IMG/VR virus record: IMGVR_UViG_3300031746_000163
Location: 1 to 24,805 of that record
Length of the DNA: 24,805 nt
Direction: 5' to 3' (one strand)
Source: a virus
Shown: positions 4,815-24,805 of the stretch, piece after piece
How the letters are laid out: the number at the start of each line of letters is the position of its first letter
Position numbering within the stretch: position 1 is the first letter of the stretch
Made by a program: the position numbers and the translations under genes
Notes under the pieces: generated by a model
Databases searched by the model: none
Told to the model about the DNA's origin: nothing
Seen by the model: the letters and a program-made list of their open reading frames with translations, nothing else

Positions 4815-5278
4815 TAAATATCCTTTTTAATTAGAGTGACATACTCATGAAATCCCTGTCCCAAGAATCTTAAATACGACTTTACATTTCTACTAGCCGG
4901 AATCAAGATGTGCTTACACATATACTGCTGTGCTGTATCTTGCATTTGCTGCCACCAAATCTTCACCTGCTTATTGCCTCTGAGGGACGGATGTACCCAT
5001 GCTTGTGAAATAGTATAGGTAAGTTGGTCGTCTACATCAACGCAAATGTGAGCAAGATAATAAGCCATAACGTCTGTTCCGTCATCAGCCATCCAAAACT
5101 GCTGTTTATCTGAAGTATCAAAAATGATACTTTGAGCAATTGACTTTAAAGACTGATTATACATCCCTTCAATGTTTACGTTCGTAACTCTACTATCAAC
5201 TATGAATCTTTTAACCGCGTCTTCTATTGCCCCCTTACGAAGGTAATTGGGCATCGATTTGACTTTCTTTAACTCCAT
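4814..5278 (-). CDS. GNAT-like N-acetyltransferase
   Basis: This is a 154-residue protein with a GNAT-like layout. Residues 60-80 give a beta pair (FWMADDGTDVMAYYLAHICV), and residues 92-106 give a motif A-like strand and acetyl-CoA loop (QAWVHPSLRGNKQV, compare the usual R/Q-x-x-G-x-A). Residues 128-143 contain a motif B-like segment (ASRNVKSYLRFLGQGF). The loop is degenerate, so catalysis is not certain. The ATG at 5278 has a clear GGGGAGG site 8 nt upstream, although this makes it overlap the upstream gene by 44 nt in another frame. It also overlaps the next gene by 1 nt, so all three are translationally linked. GNAT-like proteins next to tail genes occur in other phages; the substrate is unknown. 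Confidence 0.75.
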   Translation of the reverse strand: MELKKVKSMPNYLRKGAIEDAVKRFIVDSRVTNVNIEGMYNQSLKSIAQSIIFDTSDKQQFWMADDGTDVMAYYLAHICVDVDDQLTYTISQAWVHPSLRGNKQVKIWWQQMQDTAQQYMCKHILIPASRNVKSYLRFLGQGFHEYVTLIKKDI

Positions 5279-5549
5279 CTTGTAACCTCCCCAGGCTAAC
5301 AGCTTCTTCAGTTTGAACTCTATTTTTGTATGTAGGATGAGCGAACAGCGCAGCTACTTTGAGATGTTCCTTTGTGGGGATCATATCAAGATCTTCTGCT
5401 TTAGCAAGTTCTTCATACTGCTTCGCTGCTCGTTTACGGCAGTTGGCTATCTTGCCATCAATAGCCCCATCAATCCAGGCTTTGATATCGAGAAGATCGT
5501 TATGTAAGATCTGAGCTTCTTCATCTGTGATTATTCGTGTATATTCCAT
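5235..5549 (-). CDS. Conserved small phage protein (ITDEE/WIDGAIDGKIANCRKR type)
   Basis: This is a 104-residue, charged, mostly helical protein. The segment IKAWIDGAIDGKIANCRKR (residues ~22-41) matches a pattern I recall from small proteins encoded near tail fibre genes in many unrelated phages ('W...A..GKI.NC.KR'), whose role is not established. It starts at an ATG preceded by GGGGAATTT, 9 nt after the end of the fibre gene, and its last 44 nt overlap the GNAT-like gene. No signal peptide or membrane segment is seen. It may act in late virion assembly or as a host-takeover factor, but nothing in the sequence decides this. Confidence 0.75.
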   Translation of the reverse strand: MEYTRIITDEEAQILHNDLLDIKAWIDGAIDGKIANCRKRAAKQYEELAKAEDLDMIPTKEHLKVAALFAHPTYKNRVQTEEAVSLGRLQDGVKESQIDAQLPS

Positions 5550-5558
5550 AAATTCCCC

Positions 5559-8500
5559 TTAGTTAATCAAACTACCCGAAAACATGGTGTATCCGGCTAC
5601 GGCGCTCTGATCTACGGTTTTAGTTGATCCACCTAACTCGATGGCAACAGTTGCGGTATCATTCGCATCCATATCAGCAATACAACTTAGAACCAAAGAC
5701 ATGTCATCCTGTGCCTGTAAATATGCGTAGTCTGCCTTGTATGTCCGATTAGAAGTTACTATATGAAGTGTCCGGTATGAGTGGGTTACTAAGATGTGTG
5801 CTAATAAAATACTGGCGTGAAGAGCGTAACGGCCTGTAACTGGGGCTGTAAAGGTATTTGAAGCAAAGTTAGCTCCTTGGTCGTATATTTCTGTGGGCCA
5901 TGCGACAGTATACACTGTTCCGTCACCAGTAACATCGTTTGCTCCTGCTGCATTTGTAACAAGAAAACTTGGTTGAGTGGGCTGAACAACTGTACCGCCT
6001 AAACTGGACAATCCTCCTGCAACGTACAAAGAGTGATTTAGGGTGCTTCCAGCAGTTGGGGTTTCAATGTATAGCCCATAGTTATTCGTTATCGCCCCAC
6101 CAGATACATATGGATTATAGATGTATAGCCCATAGTTATTCGTTATGGTCATTCCTCTAACATCTTTGTTCGCAAGAATACTAGCTGCCGCATTAAGTGT
6201 TCCTGTAGCTCCACTGGTTATTGACACAGACGCATATAAACCGGCAACAGGATAGGTCGCAGTCCAGTTGGCAGTATTTGCAGCAGGGATATTGGTTTCT
6301 CCAATCACTGCAATTGCACCAGTGGGAGAGGCAGTTCCACCAATTTGTTGAAAATGAGGGTAAGCTATAATAGCCTCATATACATTAGTGTCAGTAATTG
6401 GAGTGGTGGAACTTACTATTAAACTGTAATGATCCGTCGCAACGGTTCCTCCGCCAATATTCGTAATTCCTGTGAACGTCTTTACCCCACCAATCGTCTG
6501 TGTTCCTTCTGTCATTACAAAAGAAGCAGAAGCTCCAGCCTCAGGGATTGTGTAGGTTCTTGTAGAGGCCAAGGCTGCATGAGCAGCTATAGCAACACTA
6601 ATATTCTGAGCATTCTGGACATAAACATCATCTACAGCAGCAGCTGTTGCTGGATACAAAGCCAGTGTGCCAGCTACGCCTGAAGCAACAGACCCTGATC
6701 CTGGAGAGGCCCAAGACAGTACACCACTACCGTCTGTTTGCAGTACTTCGTTAGCTCCACCGTCGTTAACTGGCAAGGTTAAGGTATAGGATGTAACAGC
6801 AGCCGGTAAAGCGAGTGTAACTGTATTAGTGGTATCATCTGTCAAGATGATATTCTTGGTAGCCTTTAGCGTTAAGTCTCCCGCTAGGGTGGTCGCACCT
6901 GCTTCTAGAGTTCCAGTTGTTTTAAAATTTGTAGTACGTCCCGTTGCTCCTGACACCCAGTATTGGGCATGGTCATCGTCGGTTAATCCAGTAAGAGCGC
7001 CGTGGTCGGAAGCGGAAGCCGTTGTTCCTAACGTCTGGGATGTTCTAAAGTCAGTCGCTGACTGAAAAGTAGGTGTCCCGTCATTCTTATAAGTAATCTT
7101 GTAAATCAATTTCACTTCTGCGTCAACAAGAGTACCTAAGGACGGAAGAGGTGCCACTGCTGCAGCGTTGGCTGTGGTATACTCAGCTGTACCCACCACG
7201 ACAAAGATAGGTTCAGCAGAAAGATTAGATGCGTATACAAAGTAGTTAACGTACTTGTTAGCTGCAGCTGTAGAAAGAGTGGTGCCGGTATTAAATCTAA
7301 GGTTGCCTGTGGTAATCTTATATGGAGTTGTGGATGCAGCATCCCATTGCCACTCATCACTTCCGTTATGGTAGAGAACTTTACAGGTAGTCATGGCTGT
7401 ACCTGGATATGCCATAGGACTGTCAGAACTCAGCACGTGTTCTATATCTTCATCGTAGAATTCTCCAGCCGTAATGGAGAAAGTTGTATCTCCAAAAGTA
7501 CCGGTTAATCCAGTATAGTACCTAGCACCCACTGTTTCATGAAGATACTCGTGCATCCACTGATCTCGTCCCATCCAATGTCTTTCATCAGCAAGAAGAC
7601 CTTTGTTAGTGGTGGTGTTCCAGTAGACGGTGGCAACTAGGCACTTGTCAAAGCCTGGAGCCGTTATAGCATAGTTTAACTGGGGAACACCTAGAGGAGC
7701 TGTTATCCAGAACCAATACAGACCGGAGGCTTCAGCAAGACCGGCATCAAAAGCTTTAGTTAGAGTGCTGATTGTGTAGTTTGTCCCACTCAACCAAATA
7801 GTCTTATTTGTACACGTTAAACTAAGAGTAGCTGTACCGTCATTAAAACTTAATGCGGTATCGGTTCTATTAGGAAATCCGGTGTAGTGAGCCGTGGCTA
7901 CCACCGCAGCATTAGCTGATGGCGACATCCATGAGGTGGTACCAGAACCGTCTGTCTGTAATACTTGTCCAGCCCCACCATTATCAACCGGCAGAGTGAG
8001 CGTATACGAACCTGTAATTCCCCCTGGGTTAGCTATAGTGATATTTCCGCCCCCACTCTCCAATATGAAGTAACGTCCTGCCCTACTATCTTGGGCAACT
8101 GCAAAATCGGGACCACTGAATGCTCCCGCAAACACACCGGCGGTGGCAAATCTGATATCGGCACCAGTACTGTACAGACCTGTGTTAGCAGCTGACGGGG
8201 CTTGATAGATTACAATTTCGGGAGTGGCAGCCGATCCTGCGCTTAGTACCCTAACTCCTGCAAAATTAACTACTGATCCCGTAGCAATACTTTGAGGTAA
8301 ACTTAAAGTGGTATCTCCTGCGTTATATGTCACAGTAATCTGATTGGATGTTCCTAATAAACTAGCAACCGCAGGAACCCCCGTCGTACTCATGCGAACA
8401 TAAGCAGTAACTCCAGTGGCATTCGGAAGAGCTGTTACTGTATAGTCCGCCGCAAGATAGGGAAGACAAGCTGAGGTGGGACTAACTCCCGTAAGTTTCA

Positions 8501-13917: not shown

Positions 13918-14460
13918 CTATCTCCCCGTTTTTGTGAATAAAAATCTAGTTTCCATTGCTACGTTTCTTAAATGATAAACCATCCATTCGATTACAACTT
14001 TTGGCAGATACTTAAGGAGCTTAGACCCATATAAAACATGGAAAGGCTGAGCTATCTTAACGTTATCCTGAAAGTAACTACGGTGAAACGAAAGGTGATT
14101 AATTGTATTGATGTGGGTAAATGCCCCAAGTTGCAATGAACTTCCGTCTGCTGGAACCCACACTTCTATAGTTCCCCCTACTTTCAGTATTCTCCAAAGA
14201 TCCGTAAATGTCTTACCCCAGTTGGGTATGTGCTCTAAAACGTGATTCGCTAGAATACCATCAAAAGTCTCATCAGCAAATGGCAGAGGCAGTACTGTTA
14301 AATCATGAACAAGGTTTATGCCCTCTCCTTCATGACTATCTAAATTCACTACGTTAGTTGCTGGATAGTAGGACGTATCACAACCTACGTTTAAAACTTT
14401 CTTACCACCAAACTGGTGCTCTTTTGAGTACTTGTAATATGCTTGATATCCCCATTTCAC
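13918..14460 (-). CDS. SAM-dependent methyltransferase (second tandem copy)
   Basis: This is a class I methyltransferase, paralogous to the gene just upstream. Motif I is KKVLNVGCD (residues ~22-30 from the chosen start). An acidic residue after the second strand reads VVNLDSH, and the methyltransferase-11-type segment reads LPFADETFDGILANHVLEHI. A following strand reads GGTIEVWVP. I chose GTG 14460, 1 nt after the upstream stop (TAGTGTG). The frame is open to ATG 14508 (196 residues), but those extra residues only mirror the upstream gene's coding sequence. The protein is 180 residues, shorter than its paralogue at both ends. It probably methylates a sugar or related small molecule made by the neighbouring glycosyltransferases. 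Confidence 0.83.
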   Translation of the reverse strand: MKWGYQAYYKYSKEHQFGGKKVLNVGCDTSYYPATNVVNLDSHEGEGINLVHDLTVLPLPFADETFDGILANHVLEHIPNWGKTFTDLWRILKVGGTIEVWVPADGSSLQLGAFTHINTINHLSFHRSYFQDNVKIAQPFHVLYGSKLLKYLPKVVIEWMVYHLRNVAMETRFLFTKTGR

Positions 14461-14461
14461 A

Positions 14462-15136
14462 CTATTTACCCGCCTTTTTAAAGAAGTACCCTTCTTCCGA
14501 TATAACATTCCTGAGGTATGTTGCCATCCAAGTTAATGCCCAGTCAGGAGCAAACCAAATCCACCATTCCATCATTGGTCTACGACAAGAAACAACCAGC
14601 TCTACTTCTTGCAGTACGTCGGAATGCGCCACTACACCAACTGCGTCTAGATTAGTTCCTGGTCTACTAAATCCCTTTGTTCCAAAAAATGACTCTACGT
14701 TCATGTAATTAATATGATCTCGATAAACAAAAGCTCCGTCGCTAGCGACTGTAGGAACCCACACTTCTATATTTCCATTAGGAGCAGTAACTCTAGCTAG
14801 TTCCTTAAAACAATCCCACCATCCAGGGACATGCTCCAAGACATGGTTCGCAATTATCAAATCAAATGTATTGTCTGCAAAAGGCAGTGGTTTTGATAAG
14901 TCACACACAACGTTTACACCTTTTCCTGGATGTAAATCTGCATTCACAACATTGGGTGCTTTGTACGTACAGCCTCCGCATCCTACATTTAAAACCTTTT
15001 TTCCATTAAAAGTTGAATTTGGTGGATATTTAACATAAGTGCTAGATGGTACCGAATCATATCTACCTAACTTCCCACTCTTCTTCCACCCTTTATACGT
15101 CCTGAATTTCTCAGGAAAGCTGCTTAAGTAGCTCAT
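14462..15136 (-). CDS. SAM-dependent methyltransferase (first tandem copy)
   Basis: This is a 224-residue class I methyltransferase. Motif I is KKVLNVGCGGC (~46-56), the ribose-binding acid is in VVNADLH, and the methyltransferase-11-like core reads LPFADNTFDLIIANHVLEHV (~84-103). Then come an 'N.EVWVP' strand and a C-terminal region rich in Trp (MMEWWIWFAPDWALTWM) that may cap the substrate site. The ATG lies 26 nt inside the end of the glycosyltransferase gene and has GGGAGG 6 nt upstream, so the start is well supported. It shares most core residues with the next gene; the pair arose by tandem duplication. Likely substrates are a sugar, a glycan end or a lipid-linked sugar. DNA methylation is unlikely, as no DPPY/NPPY motif is seen. 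Confidence 0.85.
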   Translation of the reverse strand: MSYLSSFPEKFRTYKGWKKSGKLGRYDSVPSSTYVKYPPNSTFNGKKVLNVGCGGCTYKAPNVVNADLHPGKGVNVVCDLSKPLPFADNTFDLIIANHVLEHVPGWWDCFKELARVTAPNGNIEVWVPTVASDGAFVYRDHINYMNVESFFGTKGFSRPGTNLDAVGVVAHSDVLQEVELVVSCRRPMMEWWIWFAPDWALTWMATYLRNVISEEGYFFKKAGK

Positions 15137-19278: not shown

Positions 19279-19599
19279 CTATTTACCAAAAAAGAATTTA
19301 CTCCTCTTGGTTTCATTCCTTGAACCGTGCTGATGTTCCGCACTGTTCGCTTGACGAAGGTTGAGCATCTTCATGATAGCTGCCTTCTCGCGCTTTGTAC
19401 TAAATGGTATTGGTTGCCCTGTTTTAGGACTGCACAGATTCTCATCTGTTTGAACACCGCCCTTTCCACCAAGATACACATCAGGTAACCAGACAGAGGG
19501 AACTCGCCCGCACTGGTCGCAGATCTCCCACTTCTTTCCGTCAGTATACCCTATCTGAACTCTCGCTGCGTAGGGATTATTACAACCTTCACAGATCAT
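19279..19599 (-). CDS. Small zinc-ribbon protein
   Basis: This is a 106-residue protein with cysteines at 3, 6, 27 and 30 (CEGC and CDQC), the spacing of a treble-clef or zinc-ribbon fold. A middle segment VWLPDVYLGGKGGVQT (~36-51) follows, and then a basic, partly disordered C-terminus (NETKRSKFFFGK). The ATG overlaps the portal stop by 1 nt (TAATG), so translation is coupled. Similar small Cys4 proteins sit between portal and scaffold in some environmental phages as I recall, without a settled role. Nucleic-acid or portal binding is a guess. Confidence 0.76.
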   Translation of the reverse strand: MICEGCNNPYAARVQIGYTDGKKWEICDQCGRVPSVWLPDVYLGGKGGVQTDENLCSPKTGQPIPFSTKREKAAIMKMLNLRQANSAEHQHGSRNETKRSKFFFGK

Positions 19600-21656
19600 T
19601 ATTTCGGTTCCGCTTTAGATTTAGGTGTCGCTGCTTGTTTCTTCTTCATCATGGCAATCTCTGCTTCGTTCTTAGCCTGAGCCATCTGTAGTTCATGGCG
19701 GGTTCTCATCTCTTCCATTTGAAGTTCGTGTTGCAACTTGATGGTTTCGAGTTGAGCTTCTAGTTCCGCACGTCTCTTTGCAATCATCATCTCATTCTGA
19801 GCTTCCATCTGTTCTGCTTGGACTTTACTCTGAGCTTCCGCTTCGATACCCTTGGACTCTTTCTGCATTTTAAGGAATTCAACAAGAACCTTGTTCTGTT
19901 TAGTCGCTGCATTCTCCGCATCCATCTGAGTTTCGGCAGCTTGTTTCGACAAGGCCAGTTGTTTCATTTCCATCTCACGTTCCTTACCCTCAGCCTTCTG
20001 AGCCATCTGCATCTGTTGTTCTTGGTCGAGGGCCATGATAAGTTCTTGTACGTCCATATTCTCGGCAATAAGTTTAGCCACAGTTCCCATAAACGGACCA
20101 CCTGGCATTGCCCCAGCTTTGGGACCGAGTTCGACTAATTGGAACAGCGTCTTCATAAGTTCGGACTTATCTAAGGGAGTAGAGGAGCCGGAAACAGGCT
20201 CTAAGTCAAACTCCCCTTCGATATCCTCAGCTGTAAATGTAAATCCTTCTTTATTGGTTACTGAGCTTTGGGATTGAGCAGATGCTCTCTCTTTAATAGC
20301 TCCCTGAAGTTCGGGTGAATCTTGTCCTACAATTCTAGCGTAGTAAGGAACCGTAACAAACTGTTGAAGAAGAGCAACTAACTTAGTCGCTATATCTTCT
20401 ACAAAATCTTCCACCAAGTCAACTTTCTCAGACCGACGATTAACAGCTCCCTCGCGCATCATGTTCAATTCACCGATGGTACGAGTAGAGGTCTTTTGGG
20501 TAGCTCCACGTTCTTGTGGAGATTGACCAGAGACATTGATTTGATCTTCTTTGATTCTTTCTTCGATAGCGTAAATATCAGTTTGAAGCGGAGGATAAGG
20601 CAACGCCATGATCTTGCTAGGATCTTCTGCCGTAGCAATAGTGCCGGTTATACCCTTCTTAATCTTCGCCATCTCGTCATCATTAATATTGTTTGGAGTT
20701 GTTATCAGCTGCCTGTTGTATCGCTTCAAATGATCCAGAGCCATCGAGCGTACTTTAATTAATTCCAAGACCTGGGGTTCGAACATGGCAACATCGGAAA
20801 TACCATAAGCCATGTCATTGCTGAAGTTGAACTTAAGCATACTGAACGGCAGCCCACGCATAGCCAACGGCCACTTCTTCTCTTCTAAATATTTCTCTAC
20901 GCCTTCAGTGATGGTACAGACCGTGCCGTTTTCCATATCCCAAACTTCATGCAACCGGACCTTGCCCTTATGTGACTCTCCGCCTTCTGACGGCATATCT
21001 TTCTCATCTTCAAAACTTGCACTTAAACCTTCAGTATTCTTATAACGCGGGTTGTTCTTAACTTCCTCAACATCCAACCAAACAGAATGAGCGACCCATT
21101 TGGAGTCATAAGGCGGGTCCATTGAGTCGTCGTTAAACGTGATATCTTCCCAATTCACGTGGTACGCGAAAATATCTTCTGATTCGATGGTATCAATGTA
21201 CCCACCCATCTCATCTTCAATACTTCCGAATTTTCCTGTATAGCCAAGTTTAAGCCAACTATGGCCAATTAAGAGAGCGTCAATAACACACTTCTTAACT
21301 TCTCGTTTAAGCTTCTTGTACTTCCAAATATAGTTGATGACTTCCTCAAGTACCTTAGCGGTATTAATAGAAGTTCGATTTTTAGGATTGACTTTAATGT
21401 GGGGATCTCTGATGTAGAGAGAGGGCAGTTCTGTCTTAACGTAGGCAAAAATTAAGTTAATAGGCATGATGTCGATATCAACATCGAATTCAAACGTGCC
21501 TTTATATTCGTTGATAAGCTCAGTCCACCGGTAGTCTTTCTTGACTTTATCACGGCGATCCTGGGCTTTCTTAATAGCAGAGAGTTTCGCTCTAACTGCT
21601 TCAGCTTCTTTAGCTGGGTCTTGTTCTTTCTCAGTTGGTTGTTCTTCGTAAGCCAT
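19599..21656 (-). CDS. Portal protein with coiled-coil C-terminus
   Basis: This is a 685-residue protein, near the size of large podovirus portals (P22 gp1 is 725). Residues ~63-92 contain the familiar 'N.IFAYVKTELPSLY.RDP.I.V.P' pattern near the N-terminus, and 129-139 read LIGHSWLKLGY. A wing/stem region lies around 300-420 (LDHLKRYNRQLITTPNN, 'TIGELNMMREGAVNRR'). The last ~150 residues are a Met/Gln/Glu/Ala-rich coiled coil that could build the barrel inside the head. It lies directly after the terminase, separated by 11 nt. Portals form a dodecamer at one capsid vertex and conduct DNA. The ATG has AGAGAGGG upstream. Confidence 0.9.
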   Translation of the reverse strand: MAYEEQPTEKEQDPAKEAEAVRAKLSAIKKAQDRRDKVKKDYRWTELINEYKGTFEFDVDIDIMPINLIFAYVKTELPSLYIRDPHIKVNPKNRTSINTAKVLEEVINYIWKYKKLKREVKKCVIDALLIGHSWLKLGYTGKFGSIEDEMGGYIDTIESEDIFAYHVNWEDITFNDDSMDPPYDSKWVAHSVWLDVEEVKNNPRYKNTEGLSASFEDEKDMPSEGGESHKGKVRLHEVWDMENGTVCTITEGVEKYLEEKKWPLAMRGLPFSMLKFNFSNDMAYGISDVAMFEPQVLELIKVRSMALDHLKRYNRQLITTPNNINDDEMAKIKKGITGTIATAEDPSKIMALPYPPLQTDIYAIEERIKEDQINVSGQSPQERGATQKTSTRTIGELNMMREGAVNRRSEKVDLVEDFVEDIATKLVALLQQFVTVPYYARIVGQDSPELQGAIKERASAQSQSSVTNKEGFTFTAEDIEGEFDLEPVSGSSTPLDKSELMKTLFQLVELGPKAGAMPGGPFMGTVAKLIAENMDVQELIMALDQEQQMQMAQKAEGKEREMEMKQLALSKQAAETQMDAENAATKQNKVLVEFLKMQKESKGIEAEAQSKVQAEQMEAQNEMMIAKRRAELEAQLETIKLQHELQMEEMRTRHELQMAQAKNEAEIAMMKKKQAATPKSKAEPK

Positions 21657-21667
21657 ATTACCCTCTC

Positions 21668-22516
21668 TTATAGTAGATCCCCGAATAGTTTGTTAATGCG
21701 ATCAGACTGTTTATGCTTAGGCGTTTGTTTCTTCCACCAGTTGAGTGATCCGTGGGGTGACGAATCTACACGAGCTTTGCTTAGTTCGCCAGAACGCCAG
21801 AATGGAACCTGATGAGCCAAAGCGTCTATGATGTCGTCATGAGTATTACGCGGGAACTGGATAAGCTGATACTCTAAATCTATTAATCCTTGTCGATGCT
21901 TGATTAGGCCGTTCGCATAGAAAGGCAGCATTCCTCGAATTCTCATGGCTTTTGTTTCTTTGGTGCTACGCCCTACTTCTTCTATCGTAAAGAAATCTTT
22001 ACGTTTAATCATCTCTTGCTTAAAGGCACTTACAAACACCAACTGAGATGAAGTAGTTTCCAACAAAATCTTTGATATATTATAAGTCTTTCTTAAAGTA
22101 AATACCTCATCTATCAGTTGAGGTGGAGACATCCGCTTCTGCATTGCTTCCATAACATAAATCATATTGCCAGGTAGGATCTTTGTGATAGCTATGCCGG
22201 TATAGTCGTTTACTGTGGATTGTCCTACAGCGGGATCGATTGACATGATTCCTGGGGTATTTGTCAGCTGGGTTGTTAAGTCGGGGGTAAAAGAGAACCT
22301 CTGTACCCACTCTTGTTTGAACTCAACAGACTCAGCGTCAATCGGGTCATTCATATACTGAGAAGTGAAGGAGTGCGCGCTCTTAGACTTTCTTAAGCAC
22401 TCTAGGCATTTAAGTTTCTCTTGATTCTTATGGTCAGTACAGTGAGCGCAGTACTTACCTGGAAAGATGATCTTGCCATTTTCAATGGCTTTTCTGATGT
22501 AAACACTAAGGGACAC
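21668..22516 (-). CDS. terL: Terminase large subunit, nuclease half (C-terminal piece)
   Basis: This is a 282-residue protein corresponding to the C-terminal half of a phage terminase large subunit. It opens at the usual post-ATPase linker (SVYIRKAIENGKIIFPGKY), followed by SQYMNDP. The RNase H-like nuclease shows three acidic sites: D94 in MSIDPAVGQ, E153 in KILLETTSSQL, and HDDIIDA (D227/D228/D231). An unusual four-Cys cluster (C23, C26, C37, C40) lies in the linker. The GTG start comes directly after the stop of a tiny gene and has no strong ribosome binding site, so translation is probably coupled. The ATPase half is a separate gene at the window's right end. Both are needed for cutting and packaging if they act together. 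Confidence 0.92.
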   Translation of the reverse strand: MSLSVYIRKAIENGKIIFPGKYCAHCTDHKNQEKLKCLECLRKSKSAHSFTSQYMNDPIDAESVEFKQEWVQRFSFTPDLTTQLTNTPGIMSIDPAVGQSTVNDYTGIAITKILPGNMIYVMEAMQKRMSPPQLIDEVFTLRKTYNISKILLETTSSQLVFVSAFKQEMIKRKDFFTIEEVGRSTKETKAMRIRGMLPFYANGLIKHRQGLIDLEYQLIQFPRNTHDDIIDALAHQVPFWRSGELSKARVDSSPHGSLNWWKKQTPKHKQSDRINKLFGDLL

Positions 22517-22657
22517 TTATTTCTTCTTTTTCTTCTTAGATCGTTTTCTTCGTAGTACATCATAAGCAATAGCAATAGCCTGATTTTGAGGTCTACCTGT
22601 AGCCATCAATTCAGCGATATTTCTACCCATATTCTTTTTACCTGACAATAACGGCAT
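22517..22657 (-). CDS. 46-residue basic phage protein (GRPQNQAIAIA motif)
   Basis: This short gene has AGGAG 6 nt before its ATG and its TAA directly abuts the GTG of the terminase nuclease half. It encodes 46 residues. The segment IAELMATGRPQNQAIAIAY is followed by a basic tail that ends in six consecutive lysines. A '.GRP.KQA.AIA' helix with a Lys-rich end is a pattern I recall in small phage proteins near terminase and portal genes, of unknown role. The charge suggests DNA or RNA binding. Its close stop/start junction may carry ribosomes into the nuclease half, which lacks its own good binding site. Confidence 0.8.
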   Translation of the reverse strand: MPLLSGKKNMGRNIAELMATGRPQNQAIAIAYDVLRRKRSKKKKKK

Positions 22658-22671
22658 ACTATTCTCCTAAA

Positions 22672-22914
22672 TTACTGCACCTTTCTAAAAACGGGCGGAA
22701 GGGGAGTTGGTTCTGGCGGTATTTTACTTTTTAACGACATAATAGTATTTAAATAATCATTTTTTAAAGCAGCAACGTCGTATTTTTCATTTACCTGTTT
22801 ATCACGAATATCATCCTGCATGTGAGACTGTCCAAATTTAGAATGCAGAATTTGGTAAACTAACTCTAATAAAGCGTCAGAATCAAGAGTATCGGGGGGA
22901 GGCTTAGATATCAT
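22672..22914 (-). CDS. Small unknown protein in the terminase cassette
   Basis: This is an 80-residue acidic/polar helical protein. I chose ATG 22914, with GGTGGG just upstream; GTG 22923 would add three residues. It overlaps the end of the previous gene by 11 nt. It starts with ISKPPPDTLDSDALLELVYQ, has a helical middle with HMQDDIRDKQVNEKYDVAAL, and ends in a proline-rich tail (PPEPTPLPPVF). I do not recognise a family. Codon composition is clearly AT-richer than in the flanking packaging genes, in common with the rest of the cassette. Confidence 0.72.
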   Translation of the reverse strand: MISKPPPDTLDSDALLELVYQILHSKFGQSHMQDDIRDKQVNEKYDVAALKNDYLNTIMSLKSKIPPEPTPLPPVFRKVQ

Positions 22915-23200
22915 CTGACCCACCAGACCAACATAAAACTTCCATTACTACACCGGCAGTGGGGGATTGTACATACACTTTAGAATTAGTTCGGATATTA
23001 TCGTCATAGTACAGATTTCCAGCTTTTAACGTAATGTAATTTGTTCCAGATTCATTAGCTACAAAAGCAAATTGAATAATAGCACTGGTTCGAGTTTGAA
23101 ACATGATTTTATGGCAATTCAAAGGCAAAGAAATTTCATACTCAGTATTAGCCTCTACTAAAGTACCGTTAATAGTTGTTGGTTTACCGGAATCTCGCAT
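22904..23200 (-). CDS. Small beta-rich virion-type protein in the terminase cassette
   Basis: This is a 98-residue beta-rich protein whose ATG lies 1 nt after the LamG gene stop. Segments such as CHKIMFQTRTSAIIQFAFV, GTNYITLKAGNLYYDDNI and 'VYVQSPTAGVVMEVLCWS' look like a small jelly-roll or beta-sandwich. I recall the pattern 'TYI.LKAGN.YYEDN....LYFQSP' from small proteins of environmental phages, of unproven function, probably particle-exposed. Its position right after the LamG gene suggests that the two act together. Confidence 0.74.
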   Translation of the reverse strand: MRDSGKPTTINGTLVEANTEYEISLPLNCHKIMFQTRTSAIIQFAFVANESGTNYITLKAGNLYYDDNIRTNSKVYVQSPTAGVVMEVLCWSGGSDDI

Positions 23201-23201
23201 A

Positions 23202-24386
23202 TTAGGGTACGATGTCCGTAAGAGTTTCAGCAGTAAATAGAGTAGATAAATAATCTACAGCGGCACGTTGAGTCGTAGTTCCAGTAAAATCTACAGAAAA
23301 CTGTATAAACTGACCCGTAAGTCCAAGGTTTTGACCAGCCGTTAGAGAAGAACCATAACTTCCCATAGCATTCGCATCATTAGATACACGACATTTTACA
23401 GTAACTGTAGTTCCAGAAGGAGTAGTTCGCATAAAATTAAACTCGTCCCAAAGTTGATTAACTCGTGCAGAATCTGCTATATTGGTAGTATAAGAAGCCG
23501 TTGTAGGATACGTGTTTTGAGTAAATAAAGGTGTTTCTGTTCCATCTCCAGAGTTATACCGAGAATCAACATTAGCCTGACTTAAAACAACGGTGTATAA
23601 ATTTACTTCATCTAATTGACCAATCCAACCCCACGCTGTATCTAAAATAGCTCCAACCCGAAAATTATTAGTTGCAGGAATAATAGATGTTTCAGCTAAA
23701 CCGTCGTATAAAACACTATTCGTTAATAATACTCCATCCAAATAAAATTTAACACCAGCATCGACACCTGACCCATCATAGGTTATAACAAGATGTTGAT
23801 AAGTACCTGGAGTAACGGTAGTAGTTGTATAAGTCTGAAGATAGTTTGTACCCCCACCATGTAAAATAAATCGTATGTAACCTTCTTGAATAGCTACAGA
23901 CCATCCTTTTCCATCACCTGAACTATAATTTCCTATTAATGATACATCATAACCAGCTGTTTGATTAAACCAGCATTCGACACTAAAAGGTTCGTTCCAT
24001 TCAAAACCTGCAACATCACCACCTTCCACGTAACAAGATGATTCAGCTTCTCCTGCGTTTGATAGTGCGTTATTCAGTTTTCCCGCAACCCACTGAGCTG
24101 GAGAATACCCTTCAGGAGTAACGAGTGTTCCTGGTCGATTATAATAGGCACTGTCGGCTGCTGTAGTACCTGTTGTTTCGTTTAAACGCCAGTTTAAATA
24201 AATTTCAGTACCAGAAACTAAAGTTGTTTTAGGAGCAATTTGAGCAGAACTTCCTGTTCCAACGACTTCTACGTCAGAACCAAGTGTTCCTTTATTCCAA
24301 TCAGTATCTGTTGTCCAGAGTAACCGATTAGATTTGGGAAAGTGGACATAAAGAGTATCGCTGCTTTGAACTAAATTAATTGGCAC
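23202..24386 (-). CDS. LamG-like (concanavalin A-like) domain protein
   Basis: This is a 394-residue protein whose residues ~63-284 form a LamG/concanavalin A-like jelly roll. It contains LNWRLNETTGTTAADSAYY, then FSVECWFNQ (~134-142), YQHLVITYDGSG, VKFYLDGVLL and IGQLDEVNLYTVVLSQANVD. The N-terminal ~60 and C-terminal ~110 residues are beta-rich and may attach it to the particle or oligomerize it. LamG domains bind glycans or proteins, so adhesion to the host surface or environment is likely. There is no signal peptide. It starts at GTG 24386; its AGGAGG site overlaps the stop of the terminase ATPase half. It is the main gene of the cassette that splits the terminase, with lower GC than its neighbours. 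Confidence 0.88.
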   Translation of the reverse strand: MPINLVQSSDTLYVHFPKSNRLLWTTDTDWNKGTLGSDVEVVGTGSSAQIAPKTTLVSGTEIYLNWRLNETTGTTAADSAYYNRPGTLVTPEGYSPAQWVAGKLNNALSNAGEAESSCYVEGGDVAGFEWNEPFSVECWFNQTAGYDVSLIGNYSSGDGKGWSVAIQEGYIRFILHGGGTNYLQTYTTTTVTPGTYQHLVITYDGSGVDAGVKFYLDGVLLTNSVLYDGLAETSIIPATNNFRVGAILDTAWGWIGQLDEVNLYTVVLSQANVDSRYNSGDGTETPLFTQNTYPTTASYTTNIADSARVNQLWDEFNFMRTTPSGTTVTVKCRVSNDANAMGSYGSSLTAGQNLGLTGQFIQFSVDFTGTTTQRAAVDYLSTLFTAETLTDIVP

Positions 24387-24395
24387 TCTAGCCTC

Positions 24396-24805
24396 CTAAG
24401 ATACAAGAAGTTCACGCCACTTCGCCCTTTCTTGCGGAGTGACAGGTTTACCATTTAAGCTTGTCATCTCATTCTCGATGAGATAACCATATAGATCACC
24501 CATAGCCCATCTTGTACCGATTATAATCTCTAAGCCACCTGGGTCTAGCAAGTCTAGACAGTTTTGGCGAAAGCGTATAATCTTTTGGATTTGCTCTGGA
24601 GTACCTATGTTGTTCTCTTCGACCAGGTCGTCATGTATGATAATGTCGAAGTGCATACCGGTTACCGCCTTCTCAACGCCTCCGGTTTTTATAGTGGGTT
24701 CTTTGACAGTGCCGATTGTCCTTTGTGAGATCGTAATCTCGTCTTCAGTAAATTTTGACCCTTTACTGTCGAATGGCCCAAATATGTCTGAGAGGGGGCT
24801 TTTAT
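24396..24805 (-). CDS. terL: Terminase large subunit, ATPase half (partial at the window edge)
   Basis: The frame is open from the window edge to a TAG at 24396, giving 135 residues; the Walker A part lies outside. Visible are SDIFGPFDSKGSKFTEDEIT, the 'KEPTIKTGGVEKAVTG' strand, and the Walker B motif HFDIIIHDDLVEENN. The coupling-type motif IIIGTRWAMGDLYGYL also appears. These are the classic ATPase-domain landmarks of phage large terminases. The protein stops at ERAKWRELLVS, exactly where the linker to the nuclease normally continues ('.VYIRKAIENGK'), and that linker begins the separate gene at 22516. The stop codon is part of the ribosome binding site (TAGGAGG) of the LamG gene. The motor half would have to associate with the nuclease half in trans. 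Confidence 0.92.
   Translation of the reverse strand, partial: KSPLSDIFGPFDSKGSKFTEDEITISQRTIGTVKEPTIKTGGVEKAVTGMHFDIIIHDDLVEENNIGTPEQIQKIIRFRQNCLDLLDPGGLEIIIGTRWAMGDLYGYLIENEMTSLNGKPVTPQERAKWRELLVS

Follow-up and report, generated by a model that had tools for sequence, protein, structure and literature searches.

Can the packaging motor of a virus be built from a terminase large subunit (TerL) whose ATPase and nuclease are encoded by two separate genes? The question is raised by a 24.8-kb fragment, IMG/VR virus record IMGVR_UViG_3300031746_000163, whose entire 24,805 bases form the window analyzed here. Near one end, a first-pass annotation recognized an ATPase half and a nuclease half of TerL with a cassette of four genes between them. 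The evidence assembled below indicates that this is very probably a naturally two-gene TerL, in which the ATPase core and a lid-plus-nuclease unit are made as separate proteins that would assemble as two-chain motor subunits.

On the minus strand, the order of genes is the end of the ATPase open reading frame (ORF), ORFs of 394, 98, 83 and 46 amino acids (aa), the 282-aa nuclease ORF, and then portal, scaffold-like and capsid genes. The ATPase half (24396..24803, minus strand) comprises the last 135 of 240 aa. Its frame runs from 24803 to 24399, ends in ...ERAKWRELLVS* with a TAG stop at 24398-24396, and contains the Walker B motif FDIIIHDD and motif III, IGTRW. Comparison with the closest relative, L002, indicates that the contig end truncates the gene, leaving residues 106-240 of the 240-aa protein and placing Walker A past the end. 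The nuclease half (21668..22516, minus strand) is complete, with a GTG start at 22516, and begins MSLSVYIRKAIENGK. Between the halves lie 1,879 nucleotides (nt) and the four ORFs, and the first-pass annotation was correct in all of these particulars: its boundaries (24396 and 22516), its gap of about 1.88 kb and its gene count. Profile positions 376-466 of PHROG_38 (TerL) align to the ATPase half with E = 1.5e-16 and positions 503-713 to the nuclease half with E = 2.5e-36, so that the break costs no catalytic region. The further proposal that the joined halves would make one normal terminase holds in that no catalytic region is missing, and fails in that the ATPase half has about 20 extra residues and the nuclease half carries a CxxC...CxxC insertion. 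This zinc-ribbon-like CxxC-x10-CxxC element (C23, C26, C37 and C40; 22397..22450, minus strand) lies in the lid region of the nuclease half and is invariant in six close split members and absent from most others. Zinc-ribbon-like CxxC pairs were also noted for L010 (10767-11708, enlarged and with more cysteine pairs) and L049 (2493-3347).

Comparative analysis shows that the same TerL break is present in 16 distinct lineages, which establishes as real the split into an ATPase gene and a nuclease gene, each with its own start and stop. The IMG/VR relatives L002, L003, L009, L010 and L013 carry the same two genes in the same order and orientation, with a portal gene next in each; L002 is a 45-kb contig whose halves are 95% identical to those of the window. 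A scan of genome collections added L039, a contig from a Saprospiraceae metagenome-assembled genome (MAG) with 43% identity, the same break, and genes of 63, 72 and 83 aa between the halves. Only this MAG assignment points to a Saprospiraceae host. Further viral scans with alignments found the break at the same point in L040/L041, L042, L043, L044, L047, L049, L053, L125 and L126, and intact terminases at 126 fetched loci, which overlap one another and do not amount to a count of genomes. Among 395 sampled genomes of the host phylum of L039, only intact relatives were found besides L039 itself. Some loci call for individual comment. L043 has a partial nuclease half at one contig end and a similar second nuclease ORF on the opposite strand; it is likely a strain mixture or an inversion artefact and receives low weight as a split case. 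L125 shows no obvious ATG, GTG or TTG near the expected nuclease start (2529-2570). L189, in which a stop lies between terminase parts with zero gap, was left out of the split count.

An assembly chimera, in which reads from another phage were placed by the assembler inside an otherwise intact terminase, is hardly credible against this background. Two features point its way: the window is a single contig, and cassette genes differ in composition from the halves, with a G+C content at third codon positions (GC3) of 0.19-0.31 versus 0.44-0.45. Recurrence of the break in 16 lineages nevertheless means that the window's split is no chimera, and the lineages also share a tail found only in split proteins and include split relatives without a cassette. 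The arrangement is moreover identical in two samples for L040/L041 and, in a second split clade, for L165/L166. The first-pass annotation had expected intact relatives at the same point to reveal misassembly. Such relatives do exist (L035, L051 and L052), yet they do not signal misassembly, because the split recurs in independent contigs.

The position of the break is as distinctive as its recurrence. It falls just past ATPase motif III and one helix, ahead of the strand that opens the lid/linker region. The ATPase half aligns to residues 38-217 of the 586-aa T7-type terminase 8dgc, and the nuclease core aligns weakly to residues 352-538 of the same structure. An AlphaFold2 model of the nuclease half, built from 69 sequences with a mean predicted local distance difference test (pLDDT) score of 84, has best Protein Data Bank (PDB) matches including 8dgc, 3ezk, 3cpe and 3c6a, among them T4 gp17 and other terminase nucleases. 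In this model, a small separate module of about 75 residues precedes the first RNase H strand (residues 89-94, ending at catalytic D94). The break therefore lies not at the inter-domain linker, where it was first placed, but about one module upstream, some 75 residues ahead of the first RNase H strand. In T4 gp17, the lid/linker region is part of the ATPase domain. Since the break falls upstream of the ATPase-nuclease hinge, the lid/linker would travel with the nuclease chain; by homology, it corresponds to residues 1-75 of the nuclease half (22292..22516, minus strand; motif FTSQYMNDP), a part that belongs to the ATPase side in single-chain terminases.

The two kinds of ATPase protein also end differently. 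In all 21 measurable intact relatives, the first strand of the next module follows the ATPase profile core after a connection of 3-8 residues, as in IIDNESEYYDISVRKVIE. Split ATPase proteins instead continue for 22 residues (33 in L049) and stop, in 16 of 16 lineages and mostly with the pattern S-x-N-G...W-R, while the nuclease protein begins at the matching strand (SVYIRKAI). The window's version of this tail, TSLNGKPVTPQERAKWRELLVS (24399..24464, minus strand), thus has a counterpart in every split lineage and in none of the 21 intact relatives measured. If some contact makes up for the missing covalent link, the tail is the likeliest to provide it, judging from these alignments.

RNA or protein splicing could in principle restore a single terminase and make the cassette a mere insert. 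Group I introns and inteins are known to target TerL genes, fragmented pieces being rejoined by RNA splicing in Jug phages (PMC12363816) and in Bastillevirinae (PMC11878797), and the terminase of L031 has an intein-like insert. For the window group, such splicing is very unlikely. A search of window positions 21600-24805 against Rfam returned nothing at E<=1, 18 split loci had no match at the gathering threshold, and alignment reveals no intein-like stretch in either half of the window, where the ATPase half stops after its 22-residue tail. The absence of an intron or intein cause, assumed at the outset, is upheld by these searches. Several features of the genes point the same way: the ATPase half closes with a conserved tail and a stop codon, the upstream stop and the nuclease start are fused (TAATG or ATGA) in many members, the inserts of different lineages show little or no homology, and L009 and L049 have two frames yet no insert. 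In L009 the halves overlap by four bases (ATGA, within TCATGAG), with the ATPase gene ending GCG TCA TGA and the nuclease gene starting ATG AGT CTA. The two halves are thereby read in different frames; inspection of the junction by eye, with no dedicated test of slippage or read-through, found no classical slippery heptamer.

The first-pass annotation had the cassette splitting the gene, and this is the part of its account that has to be given up. In L049, the nuclease ATG follows the ATPase stop after only 11 nt, and because the split occurs without a cassette (L009 and L049) and with wholly different cassettes, the cassette is not what defines it. L009 is placed among cassette bearers in the tree and may for that reason have lost its cassette; whether or not it did, the two-gene state persists without one. 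Genes beside the ATPase half vary widely: a laminin G-like (LamG) gene in the window, genes of 57, 93, 187 and 131 aa in L002, a 668-aa gene in L003 and none in L009, while L013 has just 61- and 78-aa genes between the halves. DNA similarity between the window and L002 ends 2 bases past the ATPase stop codon and restarts at the start of the 98-aa gene, so the LamG gene occupies the exact inter-cistron place where L002 has other genes.

Within the window, all cassette genes lie on the minus strand. Cassette gene 1 (23202..24386) encodes the LamG protein, a 394-aa Laminin_G_3/concanavalin-like virion-type protein with a GC3 of 0.19; unrelated genes stand at this place in L002, and homologues in L004 and L005 are found amid other virion-type genes. 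Gene 2 (22904..23200; 98 aa) belongs to no family and has homologues between the halves in L002, L003 and L010, and gene 3 (22672..22923; 83 aa), likewise without a family, has homologues in L002 and L010. Gene 4 (22517..22657) encodes a 46-aa basic protein of phrog_2423, and its TAA directly abuts the nuclease GTG. The 98-, 83- and 46-aa genes recur in some close relatives. No endonuclease, transposase or recombinase domain is present in the window's cassette, which consists of the LamG protein and three small or unfamilied genes. Repeats at its edges are limited to weak, chance-like matches, and promoters and terminators do not rise above shuffled sequence. At the other end of the arrangement, the ATPase stop codon lies within TAGGAG, which resembles a ribosome-binding site for the following gene, in the window (as TAGGAGG, 24392..24398, minus strand), L010 and L013. 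In several members the nuclease start overlaps or directly adjoins the preceding gene's stop, whichever gene that is. On the best reading, mostly virion-type or small genes make up the cassette, which is secondary and exchangeable and lies at a cistron boundary, and that boundary is a site of gene exchange.

Some smaller observations concern the same neighborhood. A gene of about 60 aa (RERI..LIEEIN...DRL.EL..DE) appears to be located upstream of the ATPase half in L009 (4579-4752) and L002 (6937-7155), and between the halves in L039 (5508-5726), L044 (1324-1527) and L053 (1761-1928). Directly downstream of the nuclease half, as in close split members, is the portal protein gene (P22_portal, phrog_156; 19599..21656, minus strand). 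Farther away, two adjacent genes of the window (13918-14508 and 14462-15136) are apparent paralogues, each matching both L002 copies.

Both halves are conserved and appear to be in use. The ratio of nonsynonymous to synonymous substitution rates (dN/dS), with many pairs saturated at synonymous sites, lies at 0.04-0.10 in the ATPase half and at 0.06-0.10 in the nuclease half, similar to portal and capsid, so both halves are under purifying selection. Nuclease residues D94, E153, K189 and D228 are invariant across 69 sequences. The full-length ATPase half of L002 carries Walker A (PRGHLKS), FDIIIHDD and IGTRW, matches PHROG_38 with an E-value of 1.2e-31, and has PDB matches to 4bij and 8dgc. The group therefore has the ATPase motifs expected of TerL (in L002) and an RNase H-fold nuclease with acidic residues D94, E153 and D228; what it lacks is ATPase and nuclease in one polypeptide, since 16 lineages encode them in two ORFs. 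The link to the portal is seen as gene synteny only, the nuclease half lying next to the portal gene. These data bear on the idea that an insertion broke the terminase gene and another enzyme now packages the DNA. An insertion into a core gene is normally lethal to that gene, but the low dN/dS of both halves and their invariant catalytic residues make inactivation extremely improbable. Moreover, in the 44-45-kb contigs L002, L010 and L042 the PHROG_38 matches are the two halves only, and PHROG_2 has zero matches, which leaves no other candidate of either family.

Phylogenetic analysis places the 16 tail-bearing lineages and the intact L035, L051 and L052 in one clade with support of 100/100. 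In the free tree, the three intact terminases are nested within the split clade and are joined without the tail, and a single clade of the 16 split lineages is not rejected (approximately unbiased test, p-AU 0.163). These trees are compatible with one split, with or without re-fusion in L035, L051 and L052. A second split clade, L155, L165 (= L166) and L178, is separate (100/100), breaks at nearly the same place, and has no S-x-N-G...WR tail. Its loci (L155, 1-5729; L165, 2179-5711, and L166; L178, 3168-5657) hold 0.9-4.2 kb of virion-type or unfamilied genes between the halves, and the arrangement is identical in the two samples that yielded L165 and L166. L165 has a 523-aa protein between the halves with a weak ART-PolyVal match. 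In MW202554.1 (L031; Podoviridae sp. ctLwi270), positions 4926-7463 hold a 551-aa ATPase ORF, a 62-aa gene and a separate 229-aa nuclease gene; two coding sequences are annotated 'terminase large subunit', and the break follows the lid motif QQMNNP. The intein-like insert of its ATPase ORF was read by eye exactly at FACQQMNNP, and Pfam found no intein family. Because the second clade and MW202554.1 exist beside the 16-lineage clade, TerL has split more than once. Two other candidates were set aside. Roseobacter phage SIO1 gp4/gp2, annotated apart and on opposite strands, was dropped as a precedent because the terminase of its relative ICBM1 is intact, and the two ORFs of Streptomyces phage JXY1 (NC_048854.1, 20644-22618), which correspond to one gene in Manuel and FlowerPower, possibly reflect a frameshift, perhaps from sequencing.

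A two-protein packaging motor, as the first-pass annotation suggested, is the simplest reading of a two-gene terminase, to judge from the genes themselves. One operon would yield two proteins, an ATPase core of about 240 aa and a lid plus nuclease of about 282 aa, which would come together on the portal, so that each motor subunit would consist of two chains. The tail and the lid module may form part of the interface, where the lid would complete the ATPase module in trans; packaging would proceed without a covalent ATPase-nuclease link. Alternatively, the ATPase protein might package alone, with the nuclease joining just for the cuts at which packaging begins and ends. Separate genes would allow separate dosage and timing, and cutting is required only at initiation and termination of headful packaging. 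This alternative to a permanent heterodimer remains doubtful, because an ATPase chain whose lid/linker sits on the nuclease chain would be short of part of its ATPase module, judging from T4- and T7-type terminases, and because the tail resembles an added contact.

Some points weigh against a natural two-gene TerL. The window's own ATPase half is incomplete, every split member is metagenomic and none is cultured, an RNA element of unrecognised kind could escape Rfam, and the position of L035, L051 and L052 inside the split clade may reflect either re-fusion or several splits. The two-gene terminase nonetheless fits the evidence best. A fuller picture stands at about an even chance: a ring of two-chain subunits with the ATPase lid supplied in trans by the nuclease protein, a tail that arose with the split, a dispensable covalent link, and a boundary that serves as a place for swapping virion genes. 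Packaging models (T4, P74-26, HK97 and T7) assume ATPase and nuclease in one hinged chain, and a long-lived natural split inside the ATPase module makes it possible to test whether a covalent link is needed for coupling and for switching between translocation and cutting. Annotation pipelines may call such genomes partial-terminase, and the split boundary marks a place of virion-gene exchange.

Known systems resemble this arrangement in part. Where group I introns or inteins interrupt TerL (PMC12363816, PMC11878797), terminase pieces likewise have other DNA between them; the Jug and Bastillevirinae pieces are rejoined by RNA splicing, whereas searches of the window group revealed no intron and each half there is a complete gene in itself. 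A search of the accessible literature yielded no account of a two-gene TerL lacking an intron. MW202554.1 likewise has ATPase and nuclease parts in separate genes with a small gene between, yet it differs in a break near the true hinge, in its intein-like insert and in the absence of a tail of the window-group kind. In herpes simplex virus UL15, too, other viral genes lie between the terminase halves, but the exons are joined by mRNA splicing and the inner genes are on the opposite strand. Half-size terminases are already in databases: PHROG_4758, with 243 positions, covers the ATPase part and PHROG_5573, with 250 positions, the nuclease part. Both are named 'terminase large subunit' and they match the two halves; no statement was found that they pair. 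There is also a likeness to single-chain T7/PsiM2/P22-like TerL (PHROG_38, Pfam Terminase_6C, NF033889; 4bij and 8dgc), which both halves match in the right order and with which they share catalytic residues and portal synteny. Unlike these single-chain enzymes, the split group has two genes, an extra ATPase tail and the lid on the nuclease chain, and its close members carry the CxxC...CxxC insertion.

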